A DNA stretch of 36,908 nucleotides from an uncultured delta proteobacterium (GTDB lineage Bacteria; Desulfobacterota; Desulfovibrionia; Desulfovibrionales; Desulfovibrionaceae). Positions 2,295 through 27,716 of the stretch are shown in pieces. Made by a program: the position numbers and the translations under genes. The first letter of the stretch is position 1; each line of letters begins with the position of its first letter. The notes beneath the pieces are model-generated. The model saw only the letters and a list, made by a program, of their open reading frames with translations. It had not been told where the DNA came from and made no database searches. The stretch is taken from contig CAILNX010000028.1 in the NCBI GenBank assembly GCA_903835685.1, positions 1-36,908 of the forward strand, in the 5' to 3' direction.

Positions 2295-2324
2295 CTCAGG
2301 ACCGCCCGGCGATTTCAATATGAT

Positions 2325-2336
2325 TTCGTATACGAA
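2325..2336. repeat. 12-bp perfect palindrome
   Basis: TTCGTATACGAA is its own reverse complement. It lies 30 bases after the diguanylate cyclase stop, in the 222-bp gap before the toxin-antitoxin pair. The rest of that gap shows only a short GCCGG/CCGGC hairpin (2433-2451) without a U-tract. A protein-binding site is possible, but no adjoining promoter is evident. Confidence 0.4.
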
Positions 2337-2469
2337 GAGTCGAACAGAAGACTTAACTTGCCTGAATTTAAGCAATGCCTTTTGCACTGTTTGCCGGATA
2401 CCCCCAGAGTAATCCCCAGTCGTCGTTTTTAAGCCGGTTTTCTGTTCCGGCGCTCCCTGGACTCCAGGC

Positions 2470-2500
2470 TTGACCTATTGCCCCTGAGTGACTACATGTA
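2470..2500 (+). promoter_or_regulatory. Candidate promoter and operator of the toxin-antitoxin operon
   Basis: TTGACC (2470-2475) is followed after 17 bases by TACATG (2493-2498). The -10 is weak (3 of 6), but it is embedded in the perfect palindrome TACATGTA (2493-2500), a layout typical of a site bound by a ribbon-helix-helix antitoxin for autoregulation. The predicted transcript would start close to the antitoxin ATG at 2517. Confidence 0.45.
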
Positions 2501-2516
2501 TTCAAAAGGGAGGGGT

Positions 2517-2744
2517 ATGCCCACATCCGTTCGTTTGCCGGAAGACGCCGAAAGACGGCTTGAGGCCCTGGCCAACCAGACCGGGAGGTCCAAGGCGTTC
2601 TACATCCGCGAGGCCATCATGGAGCACCTGGACGACCTTGAGGACACCTATCTGGCCCAGGCCAGGCTTGAAGCCTTAAAGGCCGGGAAAAGCCATACCG
2701 TCACGATTGAAGAGGTCATGAAGCGTTATGGCCTGGAAGGTTGA
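2517..2744 (+). CDS. RelB/DinJ-type ribbon-helix-helix antitoxin
   Basis: A 75-residue protein beginning MPTSVRLPEDAERRLEALA, the pattern of an N-terminal ribbon-helix-helix DNA-binding domain (beta strand TSVRLP, then two helices with GRSKAFYIREAI). The acidic C-terminal part would wrap the toxin. The ATG at 2517 is preferred because it follows the purine-rich AAAAGGGAGGGG and puts the domain at the N terminus; an in-frame ATG at 2478 would place the candidate promoter inside the gene. It overlaps the toxin gene by 17 bases, the usual arrangement for coupled antitoxin-toxin synthesis, and probably represses its own promoter. Confidence 0.85.
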   Translation: MPTSVRLPEDAERRLEALANQTGRSKAFYIREAIMEHLDDLEDTYLAQARLEALKAGKSHTVTIEEVMKRYGLEG

Positions 2745-3000
2745 ACTCGACCACCAGGCCGAGAAAGACTTGGACCGAATAGACCGCCAGGAAGCCCGGC
2801 GCATCCTCGTTTTCCTCTTTGAGCACGTGGCCAAGCTCGACGACCCGCGCAGCATCGGGGAAGCCCTGAGAGGCCAGCTCGGCGGGCTTTGGAAATACCA
2901 CGTGGGGGCCTATCGCATCATCGCGGATATCCAGGATGAGGATATCCTCGTGCTCGTGGCCAGGATTGGCCACAGGAGCAAGATTTACGGCGGACACTAG
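2728..3000 (+). CDS. RelE/ParE-family toxin
   Basis: A 90-residue protein of RelE/ParE size. The pattern WKVELDHQAEKDLDRIDRQ at the start, LRGQLGGLWKYHVGAYRIIA in the middle and VLVARIGHRSKIY at the end matches the family, including the GxWxYRxGxYRI-like core strand and the basic C-terminal GHR segment. RelE members cleave ribosome-bound mRNA while ParE members poison gyrase; the sequence alone does not decide between them, though GHRSKIY is commoner in RelE-like toxins. The start lies inside the antitoxin gene in another frame. No disruption is seen, so the pair looks functional. Confidence 0.85.
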   Translation: MAWKVELDHQAEKDLDRIDRQEARRILVFLFEHVAKLDDPRSIGEALRGQLGGLWKYHVGAYRIIADIQDEDILVLVARIGHRSKIYGGH

Positions 3001-3038
3001 GAATTGAAGCATCCCCCACCCCACCCCAGGCCGCACAC

Positions 3039-3076
3039 AAAGGCCCAAGAACAAGTGATGCTTGTCCGTGGGCTTT
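3039..3076. terminator. Possible hairpin between converging genes
   Basis: An interrupted hairpin: outer arms AAAGGCCCA and TGGGCTTT (one bulged G) and inner arms ACAAG (3051-3055) and CTTGT (3061-3065) around TGATG. It sits between the toxin gene and the converging LysR gene, where a shared terminator is expected. There is no long U-tract on either strand, so the call is weak. Confidence 0.35.
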
Positions 3077-3125
3077 GAAATGTCCAGGGTCCGTGTCAGG
3101 ACCAGGGCAAAGGGACCGGCCCGGT

Positions 3126-4049
3126 TCAGACCTTGGAGTGCAGGCCGACCGCGAAATCCTGGCCCCATTTCAGGGCGTATTCCCGGAACCGGGCGGCCGT
3201 GGGCAGGAACTCCCGGCCCGCGTGGTGCACCAGGTAGAAGGAGCGGTCCATATCCAGGGCCAGGTTGGAAATTTCCGTAAGCTCACCCCGGACCAGGGCG
3301 TTCTCAGCCGCCAGACGGGAGGTCACGGTGCTGCCCAGCCCGGCCATGGCGCAGCGCAGGGCCGACTCGGTGCCCCCTACCTGCACGGCCCGTTTGAGTG
3401 CCCGGGGATTGACCCCCAGCTTGTCCAGGGCCTGCTCAAAGGATTTCCGGGTGCCTGAGCCGCGTTCGCGCATGATCCAGGGCCAGCCCGTGGGGTCCCC
3501 GGCCGCAATGGCCGCCGCGTGGGCCTTGGCGAATGCGGGCGAGGCCACCACCACCAGGTGGTCCTTGAACAGGGGCTCGAAAGCCAGGTCCGAACGTTGG
3601 GCCTTGGCCCCGACCAGGCCCAGGACCACTTCGCCCTTGGCCGTGCGCTCCATGATCTGGTCCGTGTCCCCGTCCTGGATTTCCACCCGGACCTCGGGGT
3701 ACAAAGGCAGAAAACCGGACAGGATGCGGGGCAGAAGGTAGTGGGCCGGGATGGTGCTCCCGCCCAGAATGAGTTCGCCAGCCACTTTTTCGCGCAGAAG
3801 GAGCACCTCGGCCCTGGCCCGCTCCAAGGCCCGGAAGACCTCCAGAGCCCGGGCGTTCAAGGCCTCGGCTGCGGGCGTGGGCAAAACCCCCCGGCCCAGG
3901 CGGTCAAACAGGCGCACCCCGAGTTCCTCCTCCAGGGCGGCCACATGGGCGCTCACCGTGGGCTGGGACAGGAAAAGCTCCTGCCCGGCCCGGGAAAAGC
4001 TCCGCAACTCGTACACTTTGCGAAAGGCTTCCAGGCGTCGAATATCCAT
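3126..4049 (-). CDS. LysR-family transcriptional regulator
   Basis: A 307-residue regulator. Residues 1-60 form the winged helix-turn-helix (MDIRRLEAFRKVYELRSFS, then LFLSQPTVSAHVAALEEELG), followed by a periplasmic-binding-fold effector domain (about 90-295). The segment GELILGGSTIPAHYLLPRIL and the later RERGSGTRKSFEQAL resemble the selenium-metabolism-associated and CysB-like LysR group; the effector is not known. The start at 4049 is chosen over the upstream ATG because the domain begins there and GAGGTGG precedes it by nine bases. It lies downstream of the rplQ terminator on the same strand, with no divergent partner visible. Confidence 0.88.
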   Translation of the reverse strand: MDIRRLEAFRKVYELRSFSRAGQELFLSQPTVSAHVAALEEELGVRLFDRLGRGVLPTPAAEALNARALEVFRALERARAEVLLLREKVAGELILGGSTIPAHYLLPRILSGFLPLYPEVRVEIQDGDTDQIMERTAKGEVVLGLVGAKAQRSDLAFEPLFKDHLVVVASPAFAKAHAAAIAAGDPTGWPWIMRERGSGTRKSFEQALDKLGVNPRALKRAVQVGGTESALRCAMAGLGSTVTSRLAAENALVRGELTEISNLALDMDRSFYLVHHAGREFLPTAARFREYALKWGQDFAVGLHSKV

Positions 4050-4059
4050 TCTATCTATC

Positions 4060-4086
4060 CACCTCATCGAATTTTCTGATGAGATG
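4060..4086 (-). promoter_or_regulatory. Inverted repeat covering the LysR ribosome-binding site
   Basis: Arms CACCTCATC (4060-4068) and GATGAGATG (4078-4086) are reverse complements at 8 of 9 positions with a 9-base spacer; the odd pair is G-U in the mRNA. In the minus-strand transcript the second arm contains the Shine-Dalgarno GAGGTG of the LysR gene. It could be a hairpin that hides the ribosome-binding site or a dyad operator for autoregulation. Confidence 0.5.
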
Positions 4087-4090
4087 CCAT

Positions 4091-4121
4091 AAAAAAAAGG
4101 CGGGCGCAAGGCCCGCCTTTT
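4091..4121 (-). terminator. Rho-independent terminator of the ribosomal protein array
   Basis: Arms GGCGGGC (4099-4105) and GCCCGCC (4111-4117) form a perfect stem around GCAAG, extended by four A-T pairs, and are followed in the minus-strand RNA by eight U residues (4098-4091). It begins nine bases after the rplQ stop codon. The U-run on the other strand is only four long, so it works mainly leftward. Confidence 0.9.
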
Positions 4122-4129
4122 CGTAAAAG

Positions 4130-4732
4130 CTACTCTTTGGTCTCTGCGACCGGGGCCTCTTCGGCCTTGGGCTTTTTGGCCCGGGGCTTCTTGGGCTTCT
4201 CCTCGGCCGGAGCGCCTTCGGCGGCTGCGGCCTTGGGCTTGGCCTTGACGGCGCGCTTGGGCTTTTCCGCCGCATCTGCAGCGATTCCGGCCTTGGACTT
4301 GGCCTTGGGCTCGGCCTTGGGCTCGGCCTTCACGGCCTTGGCGGCCTTGGCGGGCTTCTCAGCCGTCTTCTCGGCCATCTTGGTCAGTTCGATGATGGTC
4401 ATGGGCGCGCAATCGCCAGCCCGGGGAATGGCCATCTTGAGGATGCGGGTGTACCCGCCGCCTCCGCCATTGTAGCGGGGGCCGATCTCGTCGAACAGGC
4501 GCTGGACCAACTGGTGGTTGTTCAGGAACTTATAGGCCAGGCGACGGGAATGCAGATCGTCGCGCAGGGCCAGGGTGATCAGCTTGTCCACGACCTTGGT
4601 CAGTTCCTTGGCCTTGGCCTCGGTGGTGCGGATGCGTTCGTGGGTCAGCAGCGACCGGGCCATATTGCGGAGCATGGCCGTGCGGTGCTCGTGGTTCCTG
4701 CTGAGAGCACGACCGGATTTCTTATGCCTCAT
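4130..4732 (-). CDS. rplQ: 50S ribosomal protein L17 with Lys/Ala-rich tail
   Basis: Residues 1-120 are a normal L17 core ([20 protein letters not shown] at the start, [20 protein letters not shown] near the end), the protein near the exit tunnel of the large subunit. About 80 further residues form a low-complexity tail of Lys, Ala, Pro and Glu, absent from E. coli L17 (127 residues) but common in Desulfovibrio relatives. The gene overlaps rpoA by 11 bases and is the last of the array, directly before a strong terminator. The tail is encoded partly by short tandem DNA repeats. Confidence 0.97.
4307..4330. repeat. Tandem 12-bp repeat in the L17 tail
   Basis: GGGCTCGGCCTT occurs twice head to tail (4307-4318, 4319-4330) and encodes the K-A-E-P-K-A-E-P repeat of the L17 C-terminal extension. 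Slippage here would change tail length without breaking the frame. Confidence 0.7.
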
Positions 4733-5759
4733 CTTTTTCTTTCCTCTTCATCCATTCCTGGTATTTTTGCTCAAAATTATCCAGAGACATGCCGAATTTC
4801 AGCCCCATGGATTCGAGCACTCTGCGAATTTCGTCCAGGGACTTGCGACCAAAGTTCTTGGTCTTGAGCATGCTGGGTTCCGTGCGCTGCACCAGCTCGC
4901 CCACCAGGCGGATATTGGCCGCCTTCAGGCAGTTGGTGGCCCGGACGGAAAGCTCCAGCTCGTCGATGCTCTTGAAGAGGTTGGGGTTCAAGTCCGAGCT
5001 TCCGGCTCCGGCCCGCTCCTCTTCCTGGGATTTGAATTCGTCGAAGTTGATGAAGACCGTGAGCTGGTCCTTGAGGATTTTGGCGCTGTAAGCGATGGCG
5101 TCCTCAGGGGAGACCGAGCCGTCGGTCCAGACTTCCAGGACCAGCTTGTCGTAGTTGGTCATCTGCCCCACGCGGGCCTGCTCCACGGTGTAGGCTACCT
5201 TGCGCACCGGAGAGAAGCTGGCGTCCAGGGCGATGGTTCCGATTTCCTTGGACAGTCCCTCGTGCATATCGGAAGGCACAAAGCCCTTGCCCATGCGGAC
5301 CTCGAGCTCCATCTTGAGCTCCTGATCCTCGGACAGGGTGCCGATGAGCCAGTCCTTGTTCAGCACGCTGACATTGTGGGTCTCTTTGATGCATTCCGCC
5401 GTGACCGGGCCCTTCTTGTTGGCATGCAGAACCAGGACGACGGGCTCCTGGGTGGTCATGGCGAAGCGGACGCTTTTTAAGTTCAGGACGATCTCGGTCA
5501 CGTCCTCAATGACTCCGGGAATGGTGGTGAACTCGTGCTGGACACCTTCGATGGTGGCCCGCACAACCGCCGCACCCTGGAGTGAGGACAGGAGCACCCG
5601 CCTGAGGGAGTTGCCTATGGTCGTCCCGAAACCCCTTTCCAGGGGCTCGCAGGTGAACCGGCCATACACGTCCGAGGAACGGGTATCGCGCACCAACTGC
5701 TCGGGCCGGACCAGTTCGGTCCAGTTGCGGGTATTGATCAGCTTTTCGCCATTTTGCAT
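4722..5759 (-). CDS. rpoA: DNA-directed RNA polymerase subunit alpha
   Basis: A 345-residue alpha subunit. The N-terminal assembly domain (about 1-235) carries [20 protein letters not shown] and [13 protein letters not shown], the dimerisation and beta/beta'-contact motifs. After a linker of roughly 20 residues ([15 protein letters not shown]), the C-terminal domain (about 265-335) has the double helix-hairpin-helix signature [19 protein letters not shown] and [13 protein letters not shown], which binds UP elements and activators. The gene lies 19 bases after rpsD and overlaps rplQ by 11, so core polymerase supply is tied to ribosomal protein synthesis. Confidence 0.98.
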
Positions 5760-5778
5760 AGGTGTGCCCTATACCTGC

Positions 5779-6405
5779 TTATTTGGAGTACAGTTCGACG
5801 ATCAACTGTTCGTTGAGCGGCAGCTGGATGTCTTCGCGAGTGGGCAGGTTCTTGACCTGACCCTTGAGGGCCGCGCCATCGACTTCGAGCCAAACCGGAC
5901 AGCCCCGACGGGCTATGGTTTCCTGGGCTTCCTTGATGACCACGGATTCCTTGTTGCGCTCGCGCACGGAAACCACGTCTCCGCCTTTGACCAGCATGGA
6001 GGGGATGGTCACCCGGCGGCTGTTCAAGGTGAACAGGCCGTGGCGGACCATCTGACGGGCCTGGTCGCGGGAGGCCGCGAAACCCAGGCGGTAAACCACG
6101 TTGTCCAGACGACGTTCGAGCAGGATGAGCAGGTTGGCGCCGGTGACGCCCTTGGCCTGGTCCGCCCGTCCGAAATACAATCTGAACTGGCGCTCCAGCA
6201 CGCCGTACACACGGCGGGCCTTCTGCTTCTCGCGCAACTGGACGGCGTAGTCGCTCATCTTCTTGCGGATGCGGCCGTGCATGCCAGGCGCATAGGGACG
6301 GCGCTCATACGCGCACTTGTCCGTGTAGCAGCGGTCGCCCTTGAGGAAAAGTTTCTGGCCCTCACGCCGACACAGGCGGCATTTGGCTTCGGTATATCTG
6401 GCCAA
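5779..6405 (-). CDS. rpsD: 30S ribosomal protein S4
   Basis: A 208-residue primary 16S rRNA-binding protein. The N terminus keeps a zinc-binding form with Cys 9, 12, 26 and 31, which S4 of many bacteria has lost. The S4 RNA-binding domain (about 98-160) reads [20 protein letters not shown] followed by [14 protein letters not shown]. In E. coli S4 represses the alpha operon by binding an mRNA pseudoknot ahead of rpsM; here the gene-free leader before rpmJ is the place to look for such a site. It lies 21 bases after rpsK. Confidence 0.97.
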
Positions 6406-6426
6406 GTCCGATCTCCTTCTTTGGAA

Positions 6427-6816
6427 TTAGACTCTGCGACGCTTGGGAGGGCGGCAGCCGTTGTGCGGGATCGGGGTGATGTCCCTGATGAAACTCACCC
6501 GAAAACCCGCGTGGTTGATCGCGCGCATGGCCGCTTCACGGCCGGCGCCCGGGCCCTTCACATAAATCCCCACGGTACGCATGCCGTTTTCCTGGGCCTT
6601 CTTGGCAGCGTTCTCAGCCGCGATCTGGGCCGCAAAGGGCGTGCTCTTGCGCGATCCCTTGAACCCGGACTGTCCGGAACTGGCCCAGCTCACCACGTTC
6701 CCCCTCATGTCCGTGAAGGTAATGATGGTGTTGTTGAACGAGGCGTTGATGTGGGCCATCCCTACCGGGATATTCTTCTTTTCCTTCTTCTTGCCTGTGC
6801 GACGGGGTCGAGCCAT
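6427..6816 (-). CDS. rpsK: 30S ribosomal protein S11
   Basis: A 129-residue platform protein. The family signature is complete: [20 protein letters not shown] near the start, then [19 protein letters not shown], and the basic end [15 protein letters not shown]. It begins 96 bases after the rpsM stop, an unusually long gap for this array. That gap holds a small bulged hairpin in the transcript (CAGGGAA, loop CGCCA, TTCCTG) and no open frame. Confidence 0.97.
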
Positions 6817-6912
6817 ACACCCTTTCTCCGATTCAATTCGCCGGACGTATCCTCAGGAATGGCGTTCCCTGGGGAGCCCTGGCGCTGTTAATGAACGGCC
6901 TAGCGCGCTTCG

Positions 6913-7284
6913 CTATTTCTTCTTCTTGCCGACTGCGGAACGACGCGGTCCCTTGCGGGTCCGGGCGTTGGTGTGCGTCCGCTGGCCGCGCACCGGAAGT
7001 CCCTTGCGATGACGCAGTCCGCGATAGCATCCGATGTCCATCAAACGCTTGATGTTCCCGGTGATGTCGCGGCGCAGATCGCCTTCCACCTTGAAGTTGG
7101 ACTCGATCTCCTTGCGGATGACATTCACTTCGTCACCGGACAAGTCGTCGGTCTTCTTGGTCCACTCGATCCCGGTGGTGTCCAGGATTTTGAGGGCGGT
7201 GGCGCGACCGATACCGAAGATATAGGTCAGCGCGACATCCAGCCGCTTGTTCTTGGGCAAATCGACACCTGCAATGCGTGCCAC
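6913..7284 (-). CDS. rpsM: 30S ribosomal protein S13
   Basis: A 123-residue head protein contacting the P-site tRNA and 50S bridges. The start [20 protein letters not shown] and the signature [20 protein letters not shown], followed by a basic tail ending VGKKKK, match the family over its full length. It lies 13 bases after rpmJ, placing rpmJ at the head of the alpha cluster. Confidence 0.97.
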
Positions 7285-7297
7285 TATTGTTCCCCTT

Positions 7298-7411
7298 TTA
7301 ACCTTGACGCTGCTTGTGCCGGGGGTCTTCGCAAATGACCCTGAGCACGCCGCGGCGTCTGATGATTTTGCACTTGGAGCAAATCTTCTTCACAGAAGGC
7401 CTGACTTTCAT
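7298..7411 (-). CDS. rpmJ: 50S ribosomal protein L36
   Basis: A 37-codon gene read from ATG at 7411 to TAA at 7300-7298. The product begins [15 protein letters not shown] and ends [12 protein letters not shown]. Cys 11, Cys 14, Cys 27 and His 32 form the zinc ribbon of the C+ type of L36. Paralogues that replace this form under zinc limitation lack these residues. Its start is preceded by GGACGGGAGAGATC, a good ribosome-binding site. The 187 bases upstream carry no gene but several hairpins. Confidence 0.96.
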
Positions 7412-7598
7412 GATCTCTCCCGTCCTTTCAAGCGGTCAAAACCGCCTTTTTGAACACCCCGAAAAAGAGGCGCGTACCTAAGGCAAAATTTGAACAATGG
7501 CAAGAGCTTTTTTAAGCCTTGCCCCCCGTGGCTTGCCAGCCACCGAAAACAAAACCACTTGGTCCAAAAAACGACCTTCCCCGAAAAAACTGAAAGGC
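7412..7598 (-). promoter_or_regulatory. Gene-free leader before rpmJ with competing hairpins
   Basis: No open frame is seen on the coding strand. Two stable stems stand side by side: 7499-7523 (GGCAAG/CTTGCC with inner GCTT/AAGC) and 7528-7543 (GTGGCT, loop TGCC, AGCCAC). Because GGCAAG and AAGCC/GGCTT elements occur in both, they can also pair with each other, giving mutually exclusive folds. A third stem, GCGGT/ACCGC at 7430-7445, lies close to the rpmJ start. No convincing -10 box was found. The position, ahead of rpmJ-rpsM-rpsK-rpsD, fits a regulatory leader of the alpha cluster. Confidence 0.45.
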
Positions 7599-8366
7599 CT
7601 AGGAAGGTCGGCTCATGATCTCTGGTCCGTGGGACATAAGGGCCACGGAGTGCTCGAAATGAGCCGAAAGCTTGCGATCCTTGGTCACCGCGGTCCACTG
7701 GTCCGCCAGGATCTCCACCTCGTGGGTTCCGACGCAGACCATGGGTTCGATGGCCAAAACCATGCCCGAGCGCAGACTCACGTCCGGCATGCCCTTGGGC
7801 ACGAAATTGGGCACCTCCGGCTTCTCGTGCAGGTTGCGCCCCACACCGTGCCCCACGAACCGCCGAACCACGGAGAACCCGCTTGACTCCACGTAGTTCT
7901 GGATGGCGGCCGATATATCATACAAACTGTTTCCAGACTTGGCCTGTTCAATGCCCTTGTACAAGGAGGCCTCGGTCACGGCCAGAAGCCGCTTGGCCTC
8001 GTCCGAGACCTGCCCCACCGGATAGGTCCGGGCCGAGTCTCCGTAGAACCCCTCATACACCGCGCCCATGTCGAAGCTGACGATGTCACCCTCTTGCAGC
8101 ACGCGCTCCGAGGGGAACCCATGCACGATCTGCTCGTTGACCGAACAGCACAGGGCGAACGGGTAGCCCAGATAGCCCAGAAACGCGGGCCGAACCTTGA
8201 ATTCCTCGCAGCTCCGGCGGGCGATCTGCTCGAACTCCAGGGTCTTGACCCCGGGCGCGACCTTTTCGGCCAATCTGTCAAGGATCACGGCGACAATGCG
8301 GTTCGCCTCGCGCATAAGCTCTATCTCTTTGTCATTCTTGAGATAGATTCCCCGGAACTTTTTCAA
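7599..8366 (-). CDS. map: Type I methionine aminopeptidase
   Basis: A 255-residue cytosolic dimetal hydrolase that removes the initiator methionine from nascent proteins. Metal and catalytic motifs are intact: CCSVNEQIVHGFPSE (His), SFDMGAVYEGFYGDSART (two Asp), GHGVGRNLHEKPEV (His), AIEPMVCVG (Glu) and AHFEHSVAL (Glu). The frame is open far into secY, but the family start corresponds to TTG at 8366, two bases after the secY stop, giving a product starting with KKFRGIYLKNDKEIELMREA after the initiator. Placement between secY and rpmJ is standard for spc clusters. Confidence 0.95.
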   Translation of the reverse strand: MKKFRGIYLKNDKEIELMREANRIVAVILDRLAEKVAPGVKTLEFEQIARRSCEEFKVRPAFLGYLGYPFALCCSVNEQIVHGFPSERVLQEGDIVSFDMGAVYEGFYGDSARTYPVGQVSDEAKRLLAVTEASLYKGIEQAKSGNSLYDISAAIQNYVESSGFSVVRRFVGHGVGRNLHEKPEVPNFVPKGMPDVSLRSGMVLAIEPMVCVGTHEVEILADQWTAVTKDRKLSAHFEHSVALMSHGPEIMSRPS

Positions 8367-8368
8367 GG

Positions 8369-9682
8369 CTAACGTCTGCCCTTCACGCGGGTTTTGCCCA
8401 TCAGCCCCTCGTACTGTCGGCTGATGAGATAGGACTCGATCTTGCCCATGAAGTCCATGGCCACGCCCACCACGATGAGCAGACTCGTGCCGCCGAAGTA
8501 GAAGGGCACGTTGAAGTGCTGGATCATGAACATGGGCAGCACGCAGACCACGGAGATGTAGATGGAGCCCCACAGGGTGATGCGCGTGAGCACCTTGTCG
8601 ATATAGTCCTTGGTCTTCTGCCCGGGCCGGATGCCGGGGATGAACCCGCCCTGCTTGCGCAGGTTGTCCGCGATCCCCTTGGGATCGAAGATGATGGCCG
8701 TGTAGAAGTAGCAGAAGAACACGATGAGCGCGATGAAGAAGACATTGTACAGGATGGCCCCGGGATGGAAGGCGCTGGATATCTGCTGGAGCCATTCCAC
8801 GCTGGAGAAGTTGGCCAGGGTGGCCGGGAACATGAGCAAACTGGAGGCAAAGATGGGCGGAATGACGCCTGCGGTGTTCAGCCGCAGGGGCAGATGCGAG
8901 GACTGGCCCCCCATCATGCGCCGTCCCATCATGCGCTTGGCGTACTGGATGGGCACCCGCCGCTGGCCGCGCTCGCAGAACACGATGACCCCGAGCACGC
9001 CGACCATGAGCACCGCCAGAAACAGCAGCACGAAGATCGACATTTCACCCGTGGACACCAGGCGGAAGGTGTTGGACAGGGCCGTGGGCAGTCCGGCCAC
9101 GATGCCCGCGAAGATGATCAGCGAGATGCCGTTGCCCACTCCCTTCTCGGTCATCTGCTCGCCCAGCCACATGAGGAACACCGTTCCCGTGGTCAGGGTG
9201 AGCATGGTCATGAGCCGAAAGCTCCAGCCCGCGAGCATGACCACCGGCGCGCCCGTGGGGCTGTGCATCTGCTCCAGGCCGATGGCGATGCCAAAGCCCT
9301 GGATCAGGGTGATGAGCACGGTCCCGTACCGGGTGTACTGGGTGATCTTCTTGCGCCCCTCGGCCCCTTCCTCCTTGGACAAACGCTTCAAGTCCGGGCT
9401 GACCACGGTCAGAAGCTGGATGATGATGGAGGCCGAGATGTAGGGCATGATCCCCAGGGCCAGGATGGAGATGTTGCGGAGGCCGCCTCCGGAGAACATG
9501 TCGAACAGGCCAAAAAGGGTGTTCTTGGCCTGTTCGAAGAAGTCAAAGAGGGCCAGCCTGTCCACGCCAGGGACCGGGATGTAGATGCCGACCCTGTAGA
9601 CCGCCAGAAGGGCGAAGGTCCACAGGAGCTTTTTCTTCAACTCCGGGAGTTTGGCTATGTTTTGCGCGCCGGTGAGGGCCAC
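8369..9682 (-). CDS. secY: Protein translocase subunit SecY
   Basis: A 437-residue inner-membrane channel protein with ten predicted transmembrane segments. Signatures are clear: GIYIPVPGVD in the first helix region, MPYISASIIIQLLTVVSPDL in TM2 (plug region side), and the cytoplasmic loop KGIADNLRKQGGFIPGIRPG before TM9. It partners SecE/SecG and SecA. It lies three bases after rplO, and map starts two bases after its stop, so all three are co-translated. Confidence 0.98.
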   Translation of the reverse strand: MALTGAQNIAKLPELKKKLLWTFALLAVYRVGIYIPVPGVDRLALFDFFEQAKNTLFGLFDMFSGGGLRNISILALGIMPYISASIIIQLLTVVSPDLKRLSKEEGAEGRKKITQYTRYGTVLITLIQGFGIAIGLEQMHSPTGAPVVMLAGWSFRLMTMLTLTTGTVFLMWLGEQMTEKGVGNGISLIIFAGIVAGLPTALSNTFRLVSTGEMSIFVLLFLAVLMVGVLGVIVFCERGQRRVPIQYAKRMMGRRMMGGQSSHLPLRLNTAGVIPPIFASSLLMFPATLANFSSVEWLQQISSAFHPGAILYNVFFIALIVFFCYFYTAIIFDPKGIADNLRKQGGFIPGIRPGQKTKDYIDKVLTRITLWGSIYISVVCVLPMFMIQHFNVPFYFGGTSLLIVVGVAMDFMGKIESYLISRQYEGLMGKTRVKGRR

Positions 9683-21191: not shown

Positions 21192-21563
21192 TTATTTGGG
21201 ACGCTTGGCGCCGTACTTGGAGCGGCTCTGGCGGCGATCATTGACGCCAGCGGTATCCAAGGTGCCACGGACGATGTGGTAACGGACGCCGGGAAGGTCT
21301 TTCACGCGGCCGCCCCGGATGAGCACCACCGAGTGCTCCTGGAGGTTGTGGCCCTCACCCGGGATGTAGGCCGTGACCTCGATCCCGTTGGTCAGGCGCA
21401 CACGGGCGACCTTCCGCAAGGCCGAGTTCGGCTTCTTGGGGGTGGTGGTGTACACGCGGGTGCAAACGCCCCGGCGCTGCGGGCATTCCAGCAGAGCGGG
21501 GGTCTTTTTCCGCTTGATGACTTTCTTCCGGCCTTTGTGGATCAACTGATTAATGGTGGGCAT
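21192..21563 (-). CDS. rpsL: 30S ribosomal protein S12
   Basis: A 123-residue decoding-centre protein and the first gene of the array. [20 protein letters not shown] and [20 protein letters not shown] followed by [10 protein letters not shown] are complete. The TTTPKKPNS loop carries Lys at the position where substitutions give streptomycin resistance, so the allele looks wild type. GGAGGGGCC precedes the ATG. The promoter at 21610-21638 gives a leader of about 40 bases. Confidence 0.98.
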
Positions 21564-21609
21564 GGCCCCTCCAACACTGTATTTTAGAGTGAACGCGCAA
21601 GAGGGGTGC

Positions 21610-21638
21610 TCTTAATGCGACTTTGATCTTCTTGTCAA
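21610..21638 (-). promoter_or_regulatory. Promoter of the rpsL-led ribosomal array
   Basis: On the minus strand a perfect -35 TTGACA (21638-21633) is followed after 17 bases by TTAAGA (21615-21610); shifted by one, TAAGAG also fits loosely. The -10 is poor but the -35 and distance to rpsL (about 40-base leader) support it. A T-rich stretch lies upstream. Confidence 0.6.
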
Positions 21639-21932
21639 GTGGAAATGCGGGGCTTTTTTTCCTGATTTCGCAGGCAGCGCCCAGCCCGGCGGTTTCACAG
21701 ACAAAAATATTCACCCTCTTTTTCGCCACATTTCGCCCGGCCCGGGGAGGCGGTTTTTAAGGCCGCCAACGACAAGCCGCCCGTCCTGATATACGATCCT
21801 GCGGAATTATCAACCCCAAACCGGCCCCTCTTTCCCGAAAGGATGGGGCGGCCCCCATTATTCGTGGAGGCTCCCGGCCCGGAAAGCGGCCGCTCCGGTT
21901 CGGACGCGGCCCGCCCGCTGCCCTGGCGCGGC

Positions 21933-21961
21933 TTGATATCCTCCGGGGTTGCGCCTACAAC
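21933..21961 (+). promoter_or_regulatory. Promoter of the nuclease-helicase gene
   Basis: TTGATA (21933-21938), 17-base spacer, TACAAC (21956-21961): 5 of 6 and 4 of 6 matches to the sigma-70 consensus. The transcript would start about 35 bases before the ATG at 22003. Confidence 0.6.
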
Positions 21962-22002
21962 GGGAAGGCATCAGTTTCATACCCGGCCCGGAGGACTTCC
22001 GC

Positions 22003-25000
22003 ATGAACCGTTTTGTCGCCGACCTGCACATCCACTCGCGCTTCTCCCGGGCCACGAGCAAGGCGCTCACCCCCCGCCGCCTGGCGGCCTGGGCCAGGGT
22101 CAAGGGCATCGATGTCCTGGGCACCGGCGACTTCACCCACCCCGAATGGCTGGCCGAACTGGAGGATCAACTCGTTGACGACGGCACGGGCCTGTTGGTC
22201 CTGCGCCAGGAGGCCGGGCTGGCCGCCGAGATCCCCTGGCTCTCCCGGGACCCGGCCGGACACACCCGCTTCCTGCTCCAGGCCGAGATCAGTTCCATAT
22301 ATAAAAAGGCGGGCAAGGTCCGCAAAGTGCACAACCTGGTCTATGTCCCGGATTTCGCCGCGGCCCGGAGCCTGAACCTGAAGCTGGCCCGGGTGGGCAA
22401 CCTGGCCTCGGACGGCCGCCCCATCCTGGGCCTGGACAGCCACGACCTCCTGGAAATGGTCCTGGAGCTCGACCCCCGGGCCTTCCTGGTCCCGGCCCAC
22501 ATCTGGACCCCCTGGTTTTCGGTGTTCGGGTCCAAGTCCGGGTTCGACTCCCTGGAGGAGTGCTACGGGGACCTGGCCTCCCACGTGTTCGCGGCCGAGA
22601 CCGGCCTGTCCTCGGACCCGGCCATGAACTGGACCATCAGCAAGCTGGACCGCTTGAAACTCATCTCCAACTCCGACGCCCATTCCGGGGAAAAGCTCGG
22701 CCGGGAGGCCAACCTCTTCTCCGGCGACCCCAGCTACGAGGGCATCCTGCGGGCCTTGAAGGACGAGGGACTGAGCCATAAATTTTTGGGCACCCTCGAA
22801 TTTTTCCCGGAGGAAGGGAAATATCACTTGGACGGGCACCGCAAGTGCAACGTGGTCCTGGAGCCCGAGGAAAGCCGCAAGCGCGGCGGGATATGTCCGG
22901 TATGCGGCAAGCCGCTCACGGCCGGGGTACTCTCCCGGGTCCTGGAGCTGGCCGACCGCGACGAGCCGGTCAAACCCGCCCATCACCCGGGCTTCACCTC
23001 CCTCATCCCCCTGTCCGAACTCCTGTCCGAGGTCCTGGGCGTCGGGGAAAAGGCCAAGCCCGTGACCGAGGCCTACGCCCGGCTCATGGACCGCCACGGG
23101 TCCGAGCTGTCCCTGCTCACCGAGGTCCCGCCCGAGGACCTGGCCCGGCAGATCCCCCTTCTGGGCGAGGCCGTGGCCCGCATGCGCGCGGGCCGGGTCA
23201 TCCGACGACCCGGGTTCGACGGGGAATACGGGGTCATCCGGGTCTTCACCGCCCAGGAGATCAGGGAATTTAAGAGCGGCAAGACCATGATCTCCCTGGC
23301 CGTGGACCGCCTTCAGCCCGGCTCGCCCGTGGTCATCCGGACCACCACCACGGCCGAGCCTCCGGCCCCCGAGCCGCGCCCCACCTACAATGAGGCCCAG
23401 CAGGCGGCCTTGTCCGCCGAACCGGGTCCGATGCTGGTCCAGGCCGGGCCGGGCACGGGCAAGACCCGGACCCTGATCGGCCGGGTGGAGCTGCTCCTGG
23501 ACCAGGGCCAGGACCCCGAGGGCATGCTGGTGGTCACCTTCACCCGCCGGGCGGCCGAGGAGCTGCGCACCCGCCTGCGGGCCTTGCGCGGAGAAGAGGC
23601 CAAGCTGCCTCACGCGGACACCCTGCACGCCTGCGCCTACGCCTACTGGACCATGGCCCACAACGGGCACCCGCCGGTGCTCATGAACGAGGACACGGCC
23701 CGGGCCGTGTTCGCCGAGGCCAACCCGGGGCTTTCCGGGAGCAAGCTCAAGTCCGTGTTCACGGCCTACACCCTGGACCGGGAGGCCATGCGCCAGTCCT
23801 CCCAGTTTCGCCCAGGCGGCGAGTACGACGGGCACGTGTACCGCTACGCCCGTTTGAAGGAGGGCTCGGGGATCACGGACTATACTGATCTTCTGGAATT
23901 CTGGCTGGAGGGCCTGCGCCGGGGCCGGGTGGCCGCCCGGCCGACCCACGTGCTGGTGGACGAGGTCCAGGATCTGACCGCCCTGCAACTGGCCCTGATC
24001 CTGACCCTGGTCCATCACGACGGCCGGGGGCTGTTCATCATCGGGGACCCGGACCAGTCCATCTACGGATTTCGCGGCGCGTCCGGGAATATCCAGGAGA
24101 CCCTGCGCCGCCGCTGGCCCCGGCTTCAGACCCACACCCTGACCGAAAACTACCGCTCGGGCCAGAATGTCCTGGACCTGGCCCACGCCCTCCTGCCCCA
24201 GGGACCTCGGCTCACGGCCCAGGCCGACGTCCGCTCGGCCATCACCCTGTTTCAGGCCCCGGACGAGGGCCACGAGGCCTCCTGGGTGGCCGAGAAGATC
24301 CGCGCCCTCCTCGGGTCCACGGCCCACACCCTGGCCGACCAGGGGGACCACGGCGGCCTTTCCCCGGGCCAGATCGCCATCCTGGTCCGCTTCAAGGGCC
24401 TCATCCCCACGCTGGAGCGCAGCCTGTCCCGCCTGGGCGTGCCGGTGTCCGTGCCCGAGCAGGAGTCCTTCTGGGCCGACGCCCGCATCCAGACCCTGCT
24501 GCGTAGCGTGGGCAAGTCCCTGGGCCTGCCCGTGGGCGCTGGCGAAGTGGTGGATTTTCCGCCCCGGCTTCTGGGCATGGGACCGGTGGGGCTTTCGGCC
24601 TGGCTGAACACCATCCCGCCCTTTGACGAGCTGTTCTGGCGCGGCCGGGAGTTCGTGGCCCTGAAGAAGGCCTTTGGGGAGCGGGGGGACTGGCCCTCGC
24701 TCATCAGCTGGGTGCAGATGCAGGACGAGTTGGAGCTGGTGGGCCTGCGGGCCGAGAAAGTCCGGATCATGAGCCTGCACGCGGCCAAGGGCCTGGAATT
24801 CGAGGCGGTCTTTCTGCCGGCCCTGGAGGATGGGATTCTGCCCTTTGCCGGAACCGGCCTGCTCACCGGCAAGCCCGATCCCCTGGAGGAGCGGCCCGAC
24901 GAGGCCGAGGAGCGCCGCCTGCTCTATGTGGGCCTGACCCGGGCCAGGGCGCGGCTGTATTTGAGTTATTCAGGCAAACGCCGCCTGTTCGGACGCCTGC

Positions 25001-25113
25001 AGATGCTGCCGCCCTGCCGGTTCCTGAAGAGCCTGCCCGTGGAGCTGTTCACCCGGGTGGCCCTGGTGCCCAAGAAGGTGCACAAGGAAAAGAAATTGAG
25101 CCTGTTCGAGTAG
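22003..25113 (+). CDS. Endonuclease Q-like PHP nuclease fused to UvrD/Rep helicase
   Basis: A 1036-residue fusion. Residues 1 to about 410 match endonuclease Q (TIGR00375 type), which nicks DNA 5' of deaminated bases: PHP metal motif DLHIHSRFSR (His 9, His 11), GTGDFTHPEW, VPAHIWTPWFSVFGSKSG, SNSDAHSGEKLGREAN, then a Cys cluster (near 281, 298, 301; CPVCGKPLT). After a linker (about 410-455), a UvrD/Rep SF1 helicase has every motif: GPGTGKT near 481, TFTRRAAEEL, DEVQD near 652, GDPDQSIYGFRG, LTENYRS, MSLHAAKGLEFEAVFLPALE and LLYVGLTRARARLYL. The start follows GGAGG by eight bases. I infer that it nicks damaged DNA and unwinds from the nick. The helicase is shorter than UvrD (about 580 residues here). 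Confidence 0.9.
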   Translation: MNRFVADLHIHSRFSRATSKALTPRRLAAWARVKGIDVLGTGDFTHPEWLAELEDQLVDDGTGLLVLRQEAGLAAEIPWLSRDPAGHTRFLLQAEISSIYKKAGKVRKVHNLVYVPDFAAARSLNLKLARVGNLASDGRPILGLDSHDLLEMVLELDPRAFLVPAHIWTPWFSVFGSKSGFDSLEECYGDLASHVFAAETGLSSDPAMNWTISKLDRLKLISNSDAHSGEKLGREANLFSGDPSYEGILRALKDEGLSHKFLGTLEFFPEEGKYHLDGHRKCNVVLEPEESRKRGGICPVCGKPLTAGVLSRVLELADRDEPVKPAHHPGFTSLIPLSELLSEVLGVGEKAKPVTEAYARLMDRHGSELSLLTEVPPEDLARQIPLLGEAVARMRAGRVIRRPGFDGEYGVIRVFTAQEIREFKSGKTMISLAVDRLQPGSPVVIRTTTTAEPPAPEPRPTYNEAQQAALSAEPGPMLVQAGPGTGKTRTLIGRVELLLDQGQDPEGMLVVTFTRRAAEELRTRLRALRGEEAKLPHADTLHACAYAYWTMAHNGHPPVLMNEDTARAVFAEANPGLSGSKLKSVFTAYTLDREAMRQSSQFRPGGEYDGHVYRYARLKEGSGITDYTDLLEFWLEGLRRGRVAARPTHVLVDEVQDLTALQLALILTLVHHDGRGLFIIGDPDQSIYGFRGASGNIQETLRRRWPRLQTHTLTENYRSGQNVLDLAHALLPQGPRLTAQADVRSAITLFQAPDEGHEASWVAEKIRALLGSTAHTLADQGDHGGLSPGQIAILVRFKGLIPTLERSLSRLGVPVSVPEQESFWADARIQTLLRSVGKSLGLPVGAGEVVDFPPRLLGMGPVGLSAWLNTIPPFDELFWRGREFVALKKAFGERGDWPSLISWVQMQDELELVGLRAEKVRIMSLHAAKGLEFEAVFLPALEDGILPFAGTGLLTGKPDPLEERPDEAEERRLLYVGLTRARARLYLSYSGKRRLFGRLQMLPPCRFLKSLPVELFTRVALVPKKVHKEKKLSLFE

Positions 25114-25121
25114 GCCGGGGC

Positions 25122-25271
25122 CTAGAGCCCACCGACCTTCTTGTACACGTAGCGTTCGTACGCGCAGCAGAACTTCTTGGCCTTGTCCTGCTCCACTCCC
25201 ACTTCCCGAAGCCTGCAAAACAGATGCAGGGGATTGAACAAATGCTGCATGATCGATCTGAACTTTTTCAT
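25122..25271 (-). CDS. Conserved-looking 49-residue protein, function unknown
   Basis: A small gene whose ATG at 25271 is preceded by AGGAGG with a six-base spacer, one of the best ribosome-binding sites in the window. The product begins MKKFRSIMQHLFNPLHLFCR, has a basic, partly helical middle and ends YERYVYKKVGGL; Cys 19, 34 and 35 are present. Similar tiny proteins with an MQHxFNPLHxxCRLR pattern seem familiar from Desulfovibrio genomes, but I know no function. It converges on the nuclease-helicase gene with eight bases between stops. The frame is open upstream, but the Shine-Dalgarno fixes the start. Confidence 0.75.
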   Translation of the reverse strand: MKKFRSIMQHLFNPLHLFCRLREVGVEQDKAKKFCCAYERYVYKKVGGL

Positions 25272-25429
25272 AGCCAACCTCCTGGTCCGGCCATTTCCCA
25301 CTCCCGTCTTATGCAAATCGCGTGCCCCCTTCCTCTCCTTCGGATCTGCTGGAAATCCATGGTGTTGCCCGAATCCGGCCCCATGGTCCCCAGTCCAGGA
25401 GGGAAAAAACGTCCCGGAGGCGCTTGCCA

Positions 25430-26203
25430 TTGTCTCATCGGAACGATGCTGATTTCACTTTAGCCACGCCCGGAATCCTGGGATCTTTTTGTCCGGCCGC
25501 GCCCTCCTACGTGCGGCCCGGGACCGTGGCCGAGAACGCCGAATATTTGGCTGGCCGGGTCAAGGAAGTGGCCCTGCTCTTTTTTGAGACCCAGGCCTGC
25601 CTGGACTACACCGAGGCCGACCTGCCCCCGGGCCTGGCCGACCTGCCCCTGTCCTGGCACATCCACCTGCCCCTGGACCTGCCCTGGGACGCAGGGCATG
25701 AGGCCGTGGCCCGGGCCGTGGCCGGACTGGCCGCCAAGGCCGCCTTTCTCAAGCCCCGGGCCCTGGTCCTGCACCCGCCGCCTACGCCCGGCCTCCTGCC
25801 CCTCCTGGTCCAGGCCCTGGGGGACTCCGGGGTCCTTCCTTCTTCTCTTTTGCTGGAGAATACGGTACGGGAGCCCCTGCCTGCCTATTGGGAGGAAATC
25901 CGCAGGTGCGGATGCGGGGTCTGCCTGGACCTGGGGCACCTGCTCCTGGCCCCAAATCCGGCCCGGACCCTGGCCCTGCCGGGCCTCTGGGAACGCGCGG
26001 CCATGCTCCATGTAAGCGCTCCGGCCCAGGGCGGGCACGCCTCCCTGGCCGCGCTGGACGCTCCGGGCCGCTCCCTCTTGCGTCACATCTTGGAAGGGCT
26101 TAAAAAGGACTCCACCGTGGTTCTGGAATTGTTCGATCTTCCCAGCCTGGCCGAATCGGCCCGGCTCCTGGCGGCCTGGGGCCGGGAATGGAGGCTGTGG
26201 TGA
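25430..26203 (+). CDS. CbiR-like cobamide hydrolase (AP endonuclease/xylose isomerase fold)
   Basis: A 257-residue TIM-barrel protein of the AP endonuclease 2/sugar isomerase superfamily. Metal-ligand-type motifs follow in order: SWHIHLPLDLPW, LVLHPPPTPG, LLLENTVREP (Glu), GVCLDLGHLLL (Asp, His), MLHVSAP (His) and VVLELFDL (Glu). The HxHLPLDLPW block and the adjoining CobU-like gene fit CbiR, which opens the nucleotide loop of cobamides so the corrinoid can be rebuilt with another lower ligand. No ATG fits; TTG at 25430 follows GGAGG by nine bases. The last 16 bases overlap the next gene's upstream ATG. A different phosphosugar isomerase remains possible. Confidence 0.7.
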   Translation: MSHRNDADFTLATPGILGSFCPAAPSYVRPGTVAENAEYLAGRVKEVALLFFETQACLDYTEADLPPGLADLPLSWHIHLPLDLPWDAGHEAVARAVAGLAAKAAFLKPRALVLHPPPTPGLLPLLVQALGDSGVLPSSLLLENTVREPLPAYWEEIRRCGCGVCLDLGHLLLAPNPARTLALPGLWERAAMLHVSAPAQGGHASLAALDAPGRSLLRHILEGLKKDSTVVLELFDLPSLAESARLLAAWGREWRLW

Positions 26204-26721
26204 TATCCCTGATCCTGGGAGGGGTGAAGTCGGGCAAGTCCCGGCATGCCCTGGCCCTGTTCGAGGCCCGGCGCGCGGTCCTGGGGCGGGGCCTGATCCT
26301 GGTCACCGGCCAGGCCCGGGACCTGGATTTTCGGCAGCGGGTCACGGACCACCGCCTGGAGCGGGACCCGGCCGTGCCCGTGCGCGAGGTGGGGGCCAAC
26401 CTGCCCGAGGCCCTGGCTGCCGAACACGGCCAAAAAGGCGTGGTCCTGGTGGACAGCCTGGATTTCTGGCTCTTTCTGCGCCTGGAGCGCGGGGACGCGG
26501 ACCGAGCCGCCAGGGACCTGGAACAGGCCTTGCGGGCCTGGACCGGCCCGGAGCTGATCCTGGTCTCCTGCGAGACCGGGCTGGGCGGGATGCCCGGGCA
26601 CGCGCAGGCCCTGGCCTTTGCCCGCGAACTGGGGCATGTGAATCAAACGGCCGCGGCCCTGGCCCACGAGGCCTGGCTGGTGGTCGCGGGGTTGCCCCTG
26701 GCCCTGAAAAAGGCGAACTGA
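26200..26721 (+). CDS. cobU: Adenosylcobinamide kinase/guanylyltransferase (CobU-like)
   Basis: A 173-residue enzyme that phosphorylates adenosylcobinamide and then transfers GMP to it, in nucleotide-loop assembly of cobalamin. The P-loop GGVKSGKS is near residue 8, the His of VTDHRLERD corresponds to the guanylylated His, and ETGLGGMPGHAQALAFAREL with GHVNQTAAALAHEAWLVVAG completes the family pattern. The usual motif GGxRSGKSxxAE has Lys and His variants here. GTG at 26200 is preferred (GGAGG five bases upstream, GTGA overlap with the preceding stop); ATG at 26188 is the alternative. The stop shares one base with the next ATG. Confidence 0.88.
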   Translation: MISLILGGVKSGKSRHALALFEARRAVLGRGLILVTGQARDLDFRQRVTDHRLERDPAVPVREVGANLPEALAAEHGQKGVVLVDSLDFWLFLRLERGDADRAARDLEQALRAWTGPELILVSCETGLGGMPGHAQALAFARELGHVNQTAAALAHEAWLVVAGLPLALKKAN

Positions 26722-27716
26722 TGGCCTATTTCCGACACCTCGAAGAACAGATGAAGCGGATGCTGGCCCTGGCCGTCAAGGGAGACCGCTGGCTCATCAC
26801 CATCAACGCCGACCCCGACTCCCTGGCCTCGGCCATGGCCCTGCGCCACATCCTGACCCGCCGGGGCTGCACCGTGGGCATCGGCCAGGTCAACGAGATC
26901 AAACGCCTGGATAACCTGGCCATGGTCCGCTACCTAAACATCCCCACCCACCGGCTCATCCCCAACCTGATCGCCCAATACGACCGCTTCGCCCTGGTGG
27001 ACTCCCAGCCCCACCACCACCCGGAATTCGAGAAGCTCCACTACGCAATCGTCATCGACCACCACCCCCTGGTCCCGGAAAAGCCGGTCAAGGCCGACTA
27101 CGTGGACATCAAACCCGAGTACGGGGCCACCTGCACCATCCTGACCGAATACCTGTACACCTTGAAGCTCCGGCCGCCCAAGCTCCTGGCCACCGGCCTG
27201 GTGTTTGGCATCAAGTCCGACACCCAGGGGTTCGAGCGCAAATTCGTGGATGCGGACATCAAGGCCTTCCAGTATTTGAACAAATACGCGGACTCGGCGC
27301 TGATCAAGCGCATCGCCCGTAGCGAGTACCACCTGGACTGGCTGCGCTATTTCTCCCGGGCCTTCTACACCCAGCGCCGCATCGGCCAGGCCATCTTCGC
27401 CTTCGTGGGCCGGGTGGAGAACCCGGACGTCCTGGTCATCATCGCGGACTTCTTCACCCGGGTGCACGGCATCCCCTGGAACGCCGTGGCCGGAATCTAT
27501 CTGGAGAAGCTGGTCATCATCTTTCGGGGTGACGGACGGCGCAAGAACATGGGCCAGTTTGCCTCCTGCCTCTTCGGGGACATCGGCTCGGCCGGAGGGC
27601 ACAAGGACGCGGCCCGGGCCGAGATCGAACTCAAGCACATCCTGGACCGGGACCCGGAAAAATACGCGGCCGACCGCCTGATCCGGGGCTGCGGGATCAA
27701 GGCCAAGAAGAGCTGA
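26721..27716 (+). CDS. DHH-family phosphoesterase
   Basis: A 331-residue DHH/DHHA1 phosphoesterase. Manganese-site motifs are present: NADPDSLASAMAL (about 30-42), ALVDSQP, VIDHHPL (DHH) and a C-terminal GDIGSAGGHKDAARAEIEL, the GGGH-type DHHA1 substrate loop. Relatives include NrnA oligoribonucleases/pAp phosphatases and cyclic-dinucleotide phosphodiesterases; substrate is not determined by sequence. Its ATG overlaps the cobU-like stop by one base, so all three genes from 25430 form one operon, though the link to corrinoid metabolism may be only transcriptional. Confidence 0.88.
   Translation: MAYFRHLEEQMKRMLALAVKGDRWLITINADPDSLASAMALRHILTRRGCTVGIGQVNEIKRLDNLAMVRYLNIPTHRLIPNLIAQYDRFALVDSQPHHHPEFEKLHYAIVIDHHPLVPEKPVKADYVDIKPEYGATCTILTEYLYTLKLRPPKLLATGLVFGIKSDTQGFERKFVDADIKAFQYLNKYADSALIKRIARSEYHLDWLRYFSRAFYTQRRIGQAIFAFVGRVENPDVLVIIADFFTRVHGIPWNAVAGIYLEKLVIIFRGDGRRKNMGQFASCLFGDIGSAGGHKDAARAEIELKHILDRDPEKYAADRLIRGCGIKAKKS

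Follow-up and report, generated by a model that had tools for sequence, protein, structure and literature searches.

An endonuclease Q joined to a UvrD-type helicase: a widespread bacterial fusion and candidate nick-and-unwind repair enzyme in Desulfovibrionales

Endonuclease Q and a helicase in a single gene

The DNA analyzed here, called the window, is a stretch of 36,908 nucleotides (contig CAILNX010000028.1 of assembly GCA_903835685.1) from an uncultured delta proteobacterium of the family Desulfovibrionaceae, order Desulfovibrionales, phylum Desulfobacterota. On its forward strand an uninterrupted open reading frame at 22003-25113 runs from an ATG start to a TAG stop and encodes a protein of 1036 amino acids (aa), in which an endonuclease Q (EndoQ) is followed by a helicase of superfamily 1 (SF1). 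The mechanical list of reading frames puts the start at a TTG at 21949; the position of the ATG at 22003 is the start in many homologs. The original prediction, made from the sequence of the window, of an EndoQ-type nuclease and an SF1 helicase in one polypeptide was upheld by sequence, Pfam, and structure matches.

An AlphaFold2 model of the whole protein had a mean predicted local distance difference test score (pLDDT) of 87.9 and a predicted template modeling score of 0.83. The pLDDT fell below 50 at residues 427-458 and in two short stretches, 169-171 and 775-783, and was low over the last 16 residues. Residues 427-458 were read as a flexible tether of about 30 residues between two modules predicted to be well folded. 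The parts of the gene are as follows.

22003..25113, + strand: whole gene, EndoQ-UvrD fusion, 1036 aa, ATG to TAG
22003..23280, + strand: endonuclease Q module, residues 1-426, from phmmer, profile, and structure matches
23281..23376, + strand: disordered linker, residues 427-458, pLDDT < 50 in the model
23377..25068, + strand: UvrD/Rep-type SF1 helicase module, residues 459-1022, from Pfam and structure

The same fusion was present in the 80 homologous loci examined (see below), and because it recurs in this way it is not a product of chance; a chance open frame and an assembly join were both ruled out. The fusion of EndoQ and an SF1 helicase in one polypeptide is confirmed as real and intact. 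A promoter of its own had also been predicted for the gene and was not supported: a scan for the sigma-70 consensus, which is weak evidence in either direction, gave 0 sites in 21550-25600, compared with a mean of 0.3 in shuffled sequences.

The nuclease half

The best solved relative of the N-terminal half by sequence was the archaeal PfuEndoQ (structure 5zb8; phmmer E 7e-54), and a profile search (hmmsearch) against EndoQ matched in a single stretch over EndoQ residues 5-385 (E 5.7e-74). Comparison of the model with EndoQ structures, proposed with the original prediction, also placed 5zb8 at the top by VIA-align Z (Z 45.0, root-mean-square deviation 2.7 over 386 residues), with the EndoQ fold spanning residues 2-426 of the window protein.

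Published work is cited here by accession from passages of open-licence text. The passages of two papers on the Pfu enzyme give its metal ligand positions as D6, H8, H10, E76, H84, H139, E167, D192, and H194 (PMC4357722, PMC8307549). These align with D7, H9, H11, E95, H110, H166, E199, D225, and H227 of the window protein, and all nine are identical, where missing ligands had been named beforehand as an observation that would count against an EndoQ assignment. When the window protein was aligned with 80 homologs (81 rows), D7, H11, E95, H110, H166, E199, D225, and H227 were present in every row and H9 in 80 of the 81. The changes E76A, H84A, and H139A each abolish PfuEndoQ activity, and H139, G169, and S171 are described as hindering normal T and A in the cited passages (PMC8307549). 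The residues corresponding to the latter three (H166, G201, and S203) were found in 81/81 rows. From this likeness a specificity for deaminated bases is predicted for the window protein.

22021..22035, + strand: D7-x-H9-x-H11, first PHP metal motif, aligned with Pfu DLHIH
22285..22332, + strand: E95 and H110, equivalent to the Pfu catalytic Zn ligands E76 and H84, by alignment, 81/81
22498..22500, + strand: H166, equivalent to Pfu H139, Zn ligand and part of the lesion pocket, by alignment
22597..22611, + strand: E199, G201, and S203, equivalent to Pfu E167, G169, and S171, metal site and base-discrimination pocket
22675..22683, + strand: D225-A-H227 of the SDAH motif, by alignment
22837..22905, + strand: Zn ribbon H279-x2-C282 ... 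C298-P-V-C301, by alignment

The ribbon of the window protein is made of H279, C282, C298, and C301 (His-Cys3), compared with Cys4 in Pfu, and the four-ligand Zn ribbon of EndoQ is retained as Cys3His, a predicted zinc site. The nuclease half had been expected to keep its metal motifs and Cys cluster, which it does, with one Cys of the cluster replaced by His.

EndoQ membership was defined by fold and ligands rather than by the cut-off of the NCBIfam model TIGR00375. The window protein scored 164.3 bits with this model, under the curated cut-off of 326.6, and none of the 148 phylum genomes reached the cut-off although 104 match, so it suits other lineages. Pfam gave nothing over cut-off on the EndoQ half (best PHP_C, E 0.0058). 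The family is easily missed because Pfam shows only the UvrD helicase and the NCBIfam EndoQ model stays under its cut-off, and automatic annotation probably calls the protein just a helicase.

The helicase half

Two Pfam families matched the C-terminal half: PF00580 (E 2.4e-39, 136.1 bits, cut-off 23) and PF13361 (E 6.2e-33, 115.1 bits, cut-off 25.6). Among solved structures it matched Rep, PcrA, and the UvrD proteins of E. coli and Deinococcus with Z 30.4-39.8, and mycobacterial UvrD1 with Z 26.1 and 28.5. What we take to be the named SF1 motifs (AGPGTGKT, DEVQD, GDPDQSIYGFRG, LHAAKGLEF, and VGLTRA) were present and largely invariant across the homologs; A481, G482, P483, G484, G486, K487, and T488 were found in 81/81 rows.

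23443..23466, + strand: motif I (Walker A) AGPGTGKT, residues 481-488; AGPGxGKT in 80/80 homologs
23959..23973, + strand: motif II (Walker B) DEVQD, residues 653-657; DExQD in 80/80 homologs

The prediction of a UvrD/Rep-type helicase with all motifs intact was thus borne out, and a decayed helicase half is unsupported, since the motifs are invariant or nearly so. The ATPase motifs are intact, and 3'->5' unwinding is predicted from the family.

Spread and origin of the fusion

A scan of 84,980 species genomes gave at least 588 matching stretches and at least 584 relatives, from which the best 80 were kept. Because these were ranked against the full-length query, the sample favors fused proteins and is no guide to the fused share among EndoQs. 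Both halves of the query were covered in all 80, and when complete reading frames were clustered, a single family of 936-1190 aa took in the window protein and 79 of the 80 loci; the exception (L049) is cut off by the end of its contig within the helicase. The 80 loci came from more than ten bacterial phyla. By record title the carriers include Desulfovibrio and relatives, Geobacter, Myxococcales, Gastranaerophilales, Endomicrobium, Acidobacteria, Planctomycetes, Caldilineales, alpha-proteobacteria, Poribacteria, Cloacimonas, Caldithrix, Spirochaetes, Verrucomicrobia (Ereboglobus), and others. The EndoQ-helicase fusion is a widespread bacterial family. Its architecture joins two known families and is apparently undescribed.

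Within the phylum of the window an EndoQ match was found in 104 of 148 genomes, 42 of them in frames of at least 890 aa (fused length) and 62 in shorter frames. In these and in the order counts given below "fused" is inferred from the length of the open frame, while the 80 loci were read directly, and the 62 shorter frames include broken fused genes (G105), the split pair of adjacent genes described below (G109), fragments (G088, G002, G013, and G090), and a doubtful case (G118).

A tree of 113 EndoQ rows, 81 fused and 32 short (the latter including L133, a broken fused gene), clustered the two forms without separating them cleanly: 5 changes between fused and short were required, compared with a mean of 28 in shuffles, and the starred branches force at least two. 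Three short genes in or near fused clades (L129, L130, and L131) had no helicase match in the fetched DNA and are possible helicase losses. A further tree contained 41 of the 81 fused helicase halves, the helicase of the split pair, and paralogs from four genomes; one row labelled as a paralog (L120) is the fused gene of L020 and was discounted. The six true housekeeping UvrD-type paralogs formed a clade of their own (100/98), which contained the separate 732-aa UvrD-type helicase of the window's own genome (L107), and all fused helicases and the split one fell outside it. The helicase of the fusion is, by this tree, placed in a subfamily apart from the housekeeping UvrD-type paralogs. Distances within the two halves were correlated (Pearson 0.66 over 34 representatives).

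At one locus (L091) the EndoQ gene, at 5006-6280 and ending in GQMRLL, is separated by a single base from the ATG of a downstream helicase gene of its own, at 6282-7973, that ends in NQMELFS; these adjacent genes were read as the same pair working without fusion. At another (L124, genome G243, about 838-9271), the EndoQ gene is split by a stop and about 7.2 kilobases with the look, by eye, of a phosphate-uptake operon (Pst/Pho-like). No helicase match followed this interruption in the fetched DNA, and the same genome has a match to uracil-DNA glycosylase (UDG; E 7.5e-15).

Uracil-repair enzymes in the order and the phylum

Family 1 UDG is described as widely found in Bacteria in the available passages of PMC6202378. 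The survey of Ung, Nfo, and Nfi proposed with the original prediction was carried out for Ung and Nfi (EndoV) in 120 genomes of the window's order, taken from a larger group and at least 90% complete, and for Nfo in the window's own genome. EndoQ matched in 119 of the 120, in 115 of them with frames of at least 980 aa (fused length). In the other four, one match covers residues 1-1035 in one frame with an open frame of 465 aa (G197), two lie at contig ends (G247 and G187), and one gene is disrupted (G243). Members of the UDG superfamily were matched in only 31 of the 120 genomes, 26 of them over cut-off, leaving 89 without a match; two matches had E < 1e-30 and the rest ranged from 1e-17 to 8e-4. 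Outside the window's own family the matches numbered 16 in 41 genomes. The search for EndoV found it in 0 of the 120. The window's own genome has one EndoQ and gave no match to UDG, EndoV, or Nfo. In one genus of the order (g144), several genomes gave UDG-like matches that were very weak (E 7e-6 to 8e-4); divergent UDGs or proteins of another kind may lie behind them.

In the phylum sample UDG was found in 136 of 148 genomes and EndoV in 67, and all six genomes of the window's family lacked both. Seven of the 12 phylum genomes lacking UDG had an EndoQ of fused length and five had no EndoQ at all, while none of the 62 genomes with a shorter EndoQ frame lacked UDG. In the window's order the fusion was kept while UDG was mostly lost. 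This is an association among genomes of one order, which are not independent, and unrecognized or unrelated uracil-repair enzymes may also be present there.

A putative clamp-binding peptide at the C-terminus

In the cited passages the consensus for binding the bacterial beta clamp is QL[S/D]LF, in which positions 1, 4, and 5 weigh most (PMC3919608). The window protein ends in a degenerate form of this peptide.

25093..25107, + strand: C-terminal KLSLF, residues 1031-1035, degenerate beta-clamp peptide QL[S/D]LF

The canonical pattern Q[LMI]xL[FL] was scored in the last 12 residues; the counts leave out L049, at a contig end, and, for stand-alone proteins, L133. Among the window protein and its best homologs the pattern was present in 61 of 80 fused proteins, compared with 12 of 7946 internal 12-mers of the fused and stand-alone rows; a slightly different clamp pattern gave 66 of 80 against a background of 30/6876. 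A Desulfovibrionales-like set of 22, chosen by record title and similarity, had the canonical peptide in 9, with the window protein among the 13 without it, and the fused proteins outside this set had it in 52 of 58. Stand-alone proteins of the phylum carried it in 13 of 31 cases, or 20 of 31 by a looser pattern. Most of the fused homologs examined thus end in a putative beta-clamp-binding peptide. One beta clamp is encoded in the window's own genome. A clamp motif in bacterial EndoQ and the presence of EndoQ in Desulfovibrio are already in print; new here are the placement of the motif after the helicase in the fusions, the tallies given above, and its degeneration in the window's group.

Gene neighborhood

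Downstream of the fusion in the window, 25322-27716 encodes a cobamide-remodelling CbiR (NCBIfam E 1.8e-48), CobU, and a DHH phosphoesterase. Six of the 81 loci, the window among them, have a DHH-family gene close to the fusion, and in several of them polA comes after it. The beta-clamp gene dnaN was found in the fetched flanks of 6 of the 81 loci (5 of the 6 Pfam-checked) and polA in 7 (2 Pfam-checked). In three loci of one delta-proteobacterial clade, dnaN and a gyrB-like gene (by eye) lie beside the fusion in divergent orientation (L046, 4458-5576; L047, 4184-5302; L054, 4361-5479); dnaN of L046 and L047 was confirmed by Pfam. Synteny is a weak clue to the function of the fusion.

Proposed role and alternatives

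The reading given most credence here, as somewhat better than an even prospect, is that the fusion may carry out, within one polypeptide, nick-and-unwind excision repair at deaminated (and probably abasic) sites, often while tethered to the clamp. UvrD moves 3'->5'. In the published passages, EndoQ nicks just 5' of the lesion and leaves a 3'-OH and a 5'-phosphate (PMC4357722). A 3'->5' helicase loaded at that nick on the intact strand would travel in the direction of the lesion, peel away the damaged 5' end, and free the 3'-OH for repair synthesis, and the pairing of this nuclease with this helicase is therefore sensible. A figure legend of the same paper proposes, for an archaeal EndoQ/EndoV route, that the excised piece is removed by helicase activity; its main text, as available, does not name UvrD, and "helicase" occurs once, in that pathway legend (PMC4357722).

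By homology and from the conserved metal and pocket residues, the EndoQ module would flip out uracil or hypoxanthine and cut the phosphodiester bond just 5' of the base. The helicase, held by the linker, would then load on the intact strand at the nick and, moving 3'->5', displace the lesion-bearing 5' end downstream of it. A polymerase could extend the 3'-OH, a flap or single-strand nuclease could trim the displaced piece, and ligase could seal the nick. In most members examined the C-terminal peptide may tether the enzyme to the beta clamp, as the PCNA-interacting peptide (PIP) does with PCNA in archaeal EndoQ. The earlier idea of a self-contained alternative excision pathway is supported by inference, and the few UDG matches and lack of EndoV matches in the order agree with it.

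With recognizable UDG absent from most genomes of the sample and EndoV from all of them, the fusion is likely the main initiator of uracil and hypoxanthine repair in the order. That the order largely gave up glycosylase-initiated repair, with the nickase-helicase polypeptide as its chief enzyme for uracil and hypoxanthine, is put forward tentatively, the chances lying a little against it. If true, most bacteria of the order are natural UDG-free, EndoV-free cells living on incision and strand displacement. As a natural case, the order is well suited to tests of uracil repair in the absence of UDG: 89 of 120 genomes without a UDG match and 119 with EndoQ make the question of who repairs uracil without UDG directly testable.

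Several observations weigh against the proposed repair role. UDG was matched in 31 of the 120 order genomes, including 15 of 79 in the window's own family, and its loss may reflect one or few events. Outside the order, UDG was matched in 46 of the 50 fusion genomes submitted (from 59 such loci), so the fusion alone does not bring UDG loss and any replacement is local; a general replacement of UDG by the fusion was rejected. The bacterial EndoQ modules have conserved insertions beside the catalytic E95 and H110, with none in Pfu, and substrate specificity may therefore differ from that of Pfu; by alignment they also have an insertion in the GSKSG region. With near-copies removed (34 representatives at < 55% identity) the canonical clamp peptide was found in 21/34. 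The KLSLF of the window protein has lost the Q of position 1, which makes its binding to the clamp uncertain, and only 9 of the 22 proteins in its set are canonical. The helicase is dispensable in some lineages, since L129, L130, and L131 are without it, and the window's order has a long branch in the helicase tree. No gene was common to the neighborhoods of most of the 81 loci, and no biochemistry of any fused member was found in the literature.

A different order of events, unlikely though of some weight, is that the helicase acts before or instead of excision, scanning DNA, displacing RNA polymerase or other proteins, or opening the duplex to present the base to EndoQ in single-stranded DNA, with the nick then handled by housekeeping UvrD and Pol I. 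EndoQ is reported, in the part of the source available, to cut uracil and hypoxanthine also in single-stranded DNA (PMC11354406), and the separate helicase L107 of the window's own genome could unwind downstream. Of the 104 phylum genomes with an EndoQ match, as many as 62 have a frame of stand-alone length, so the enzyme need not bring its own downstream unwinding. A flexible C-terminal tether, however, would fit a handover at either the product or the substrate.

It is also unlikely that the main substrate of the nick-and-unwind enzyme is another one, such as apurinic/apyrimidinic (AP) sites, oxidized pyrimidines, mispairs, or fork structures, in a role resembling clamp-directed mismatch repair (nick, UvrD, and beta clamp). 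AP sites and oxidized pyrimidines are named as EndoQ substrates in the passages of PMC8307549, the bacterial insertions lie near the active site, and most fusion carriers from other orders also have UDG. The conserved base-pocket residues argue the other way. MutL was over cut-off in 60 of 61 order genomes, so mismatch repair is not missing, and the idea of a mismatch-repair substitute is weakened.

Gabija consists of GajA, an OLD-type nuclease, beside GajB. A role against phages or plasmids with uracil-containing or otherwise odd DNA is very improbable: PADLOC profiles for GajB, the UvrD-like helicase of Gabija, hit the helicase half (best E 6.8e-59) and a review suggests, in the passages available, that bacterial EndoQ may join antiviral defence (PMC8307549), but the GajB match is limited to generic helicase, with no nuclease family among the best 25 of 50 PADLOC matches in a scan of the window protein, and EndoQ is in 119 of 120 order genomes, unlike a patchy defence gene. 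The window neighbors are translation genes (EF-G, S7, and S12, by eye) and cobamide genes, with polA in some relatives. The EndoQ half had no match in the phage collection, and no plasmid place covered 80% of the whole protein; a tblastn search of plasmids with the whole protein gave 494 records, and the 30 listed were helicase-half matches. The phage and plasmid nulls, the near-universal presence in the order, and the generic GajB match together weaken a defence gene.

Comparison with known systems

The original prediction knew of no biochemical description of such a fusion, and the literature search likewise found none: no description of an EndoQ-helicase fusion appeared in titles, abstract openings, and text passages of the open-licence literature, figures and supplements lying outside these. 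Literature searches on a lack of UDG in Desulfovibrio and on the fitness of Desulfovibrio mutants in repair genes brought up no title or abstract opening about the fusion gene.

The archaeal enzymes PfuEndoQ and TkoEndoQ share with the window protein the fold, metal ligands, Zn ribbon, and pocket residues, and with most fused homologs examined a putative C-terminal sliding-clamp peptide, which in Archaea is a PIP box (PMC4858679, in part). The COG1379 protein of Pyrococcus abyssi is described as a PCNA partner in the passages of PMC3820547. The archaeal proteins are stand-alone, of about 420 aa, and bind PCNA, whereas the window fusion has a helicase between nuclease and C-terminal peptide, one Zn Cys changed to His, and insertions near the active site. 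Stand-alone bacterial EndoQs, as in Bacillus pumilus (a report cited in the available text of PMC6202378) and in many members of the phylum, belong to the same nuclease family but have no helicase, and their clamp peptide directly follows the nuclease.

On the helicase side, the SF1 fold and motifs are those of UvrD, PcrA, and Rep (Z 30-40 for Rep, PcrA, and the E. coli and Deinococcus UvrD), while the helicase of the fusion is shorter (about 565 aa) and lies outside the housekeeping clade. Canonical UvrD, PcrA, and Rep enzymes are not known to carry a nuclease. AddAB, AdnAB, and RecBCD also combine a UvrD-type helicase and a nuclease in one enzyme. Their nuclease is a C-terminal RecB-type domain and resects double-strand ends, whereas that of the fusion is N-terminal, of PHP type, and a predicted lesion nickase. 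Mismatch repair with MutL, UvrD, and the beta clamp uses separate proteins, with MutS sensing the errors. Its likeness to the fusion is the bringing together of nick, unwinding, and clamp, and MutL is also present in the window's order.

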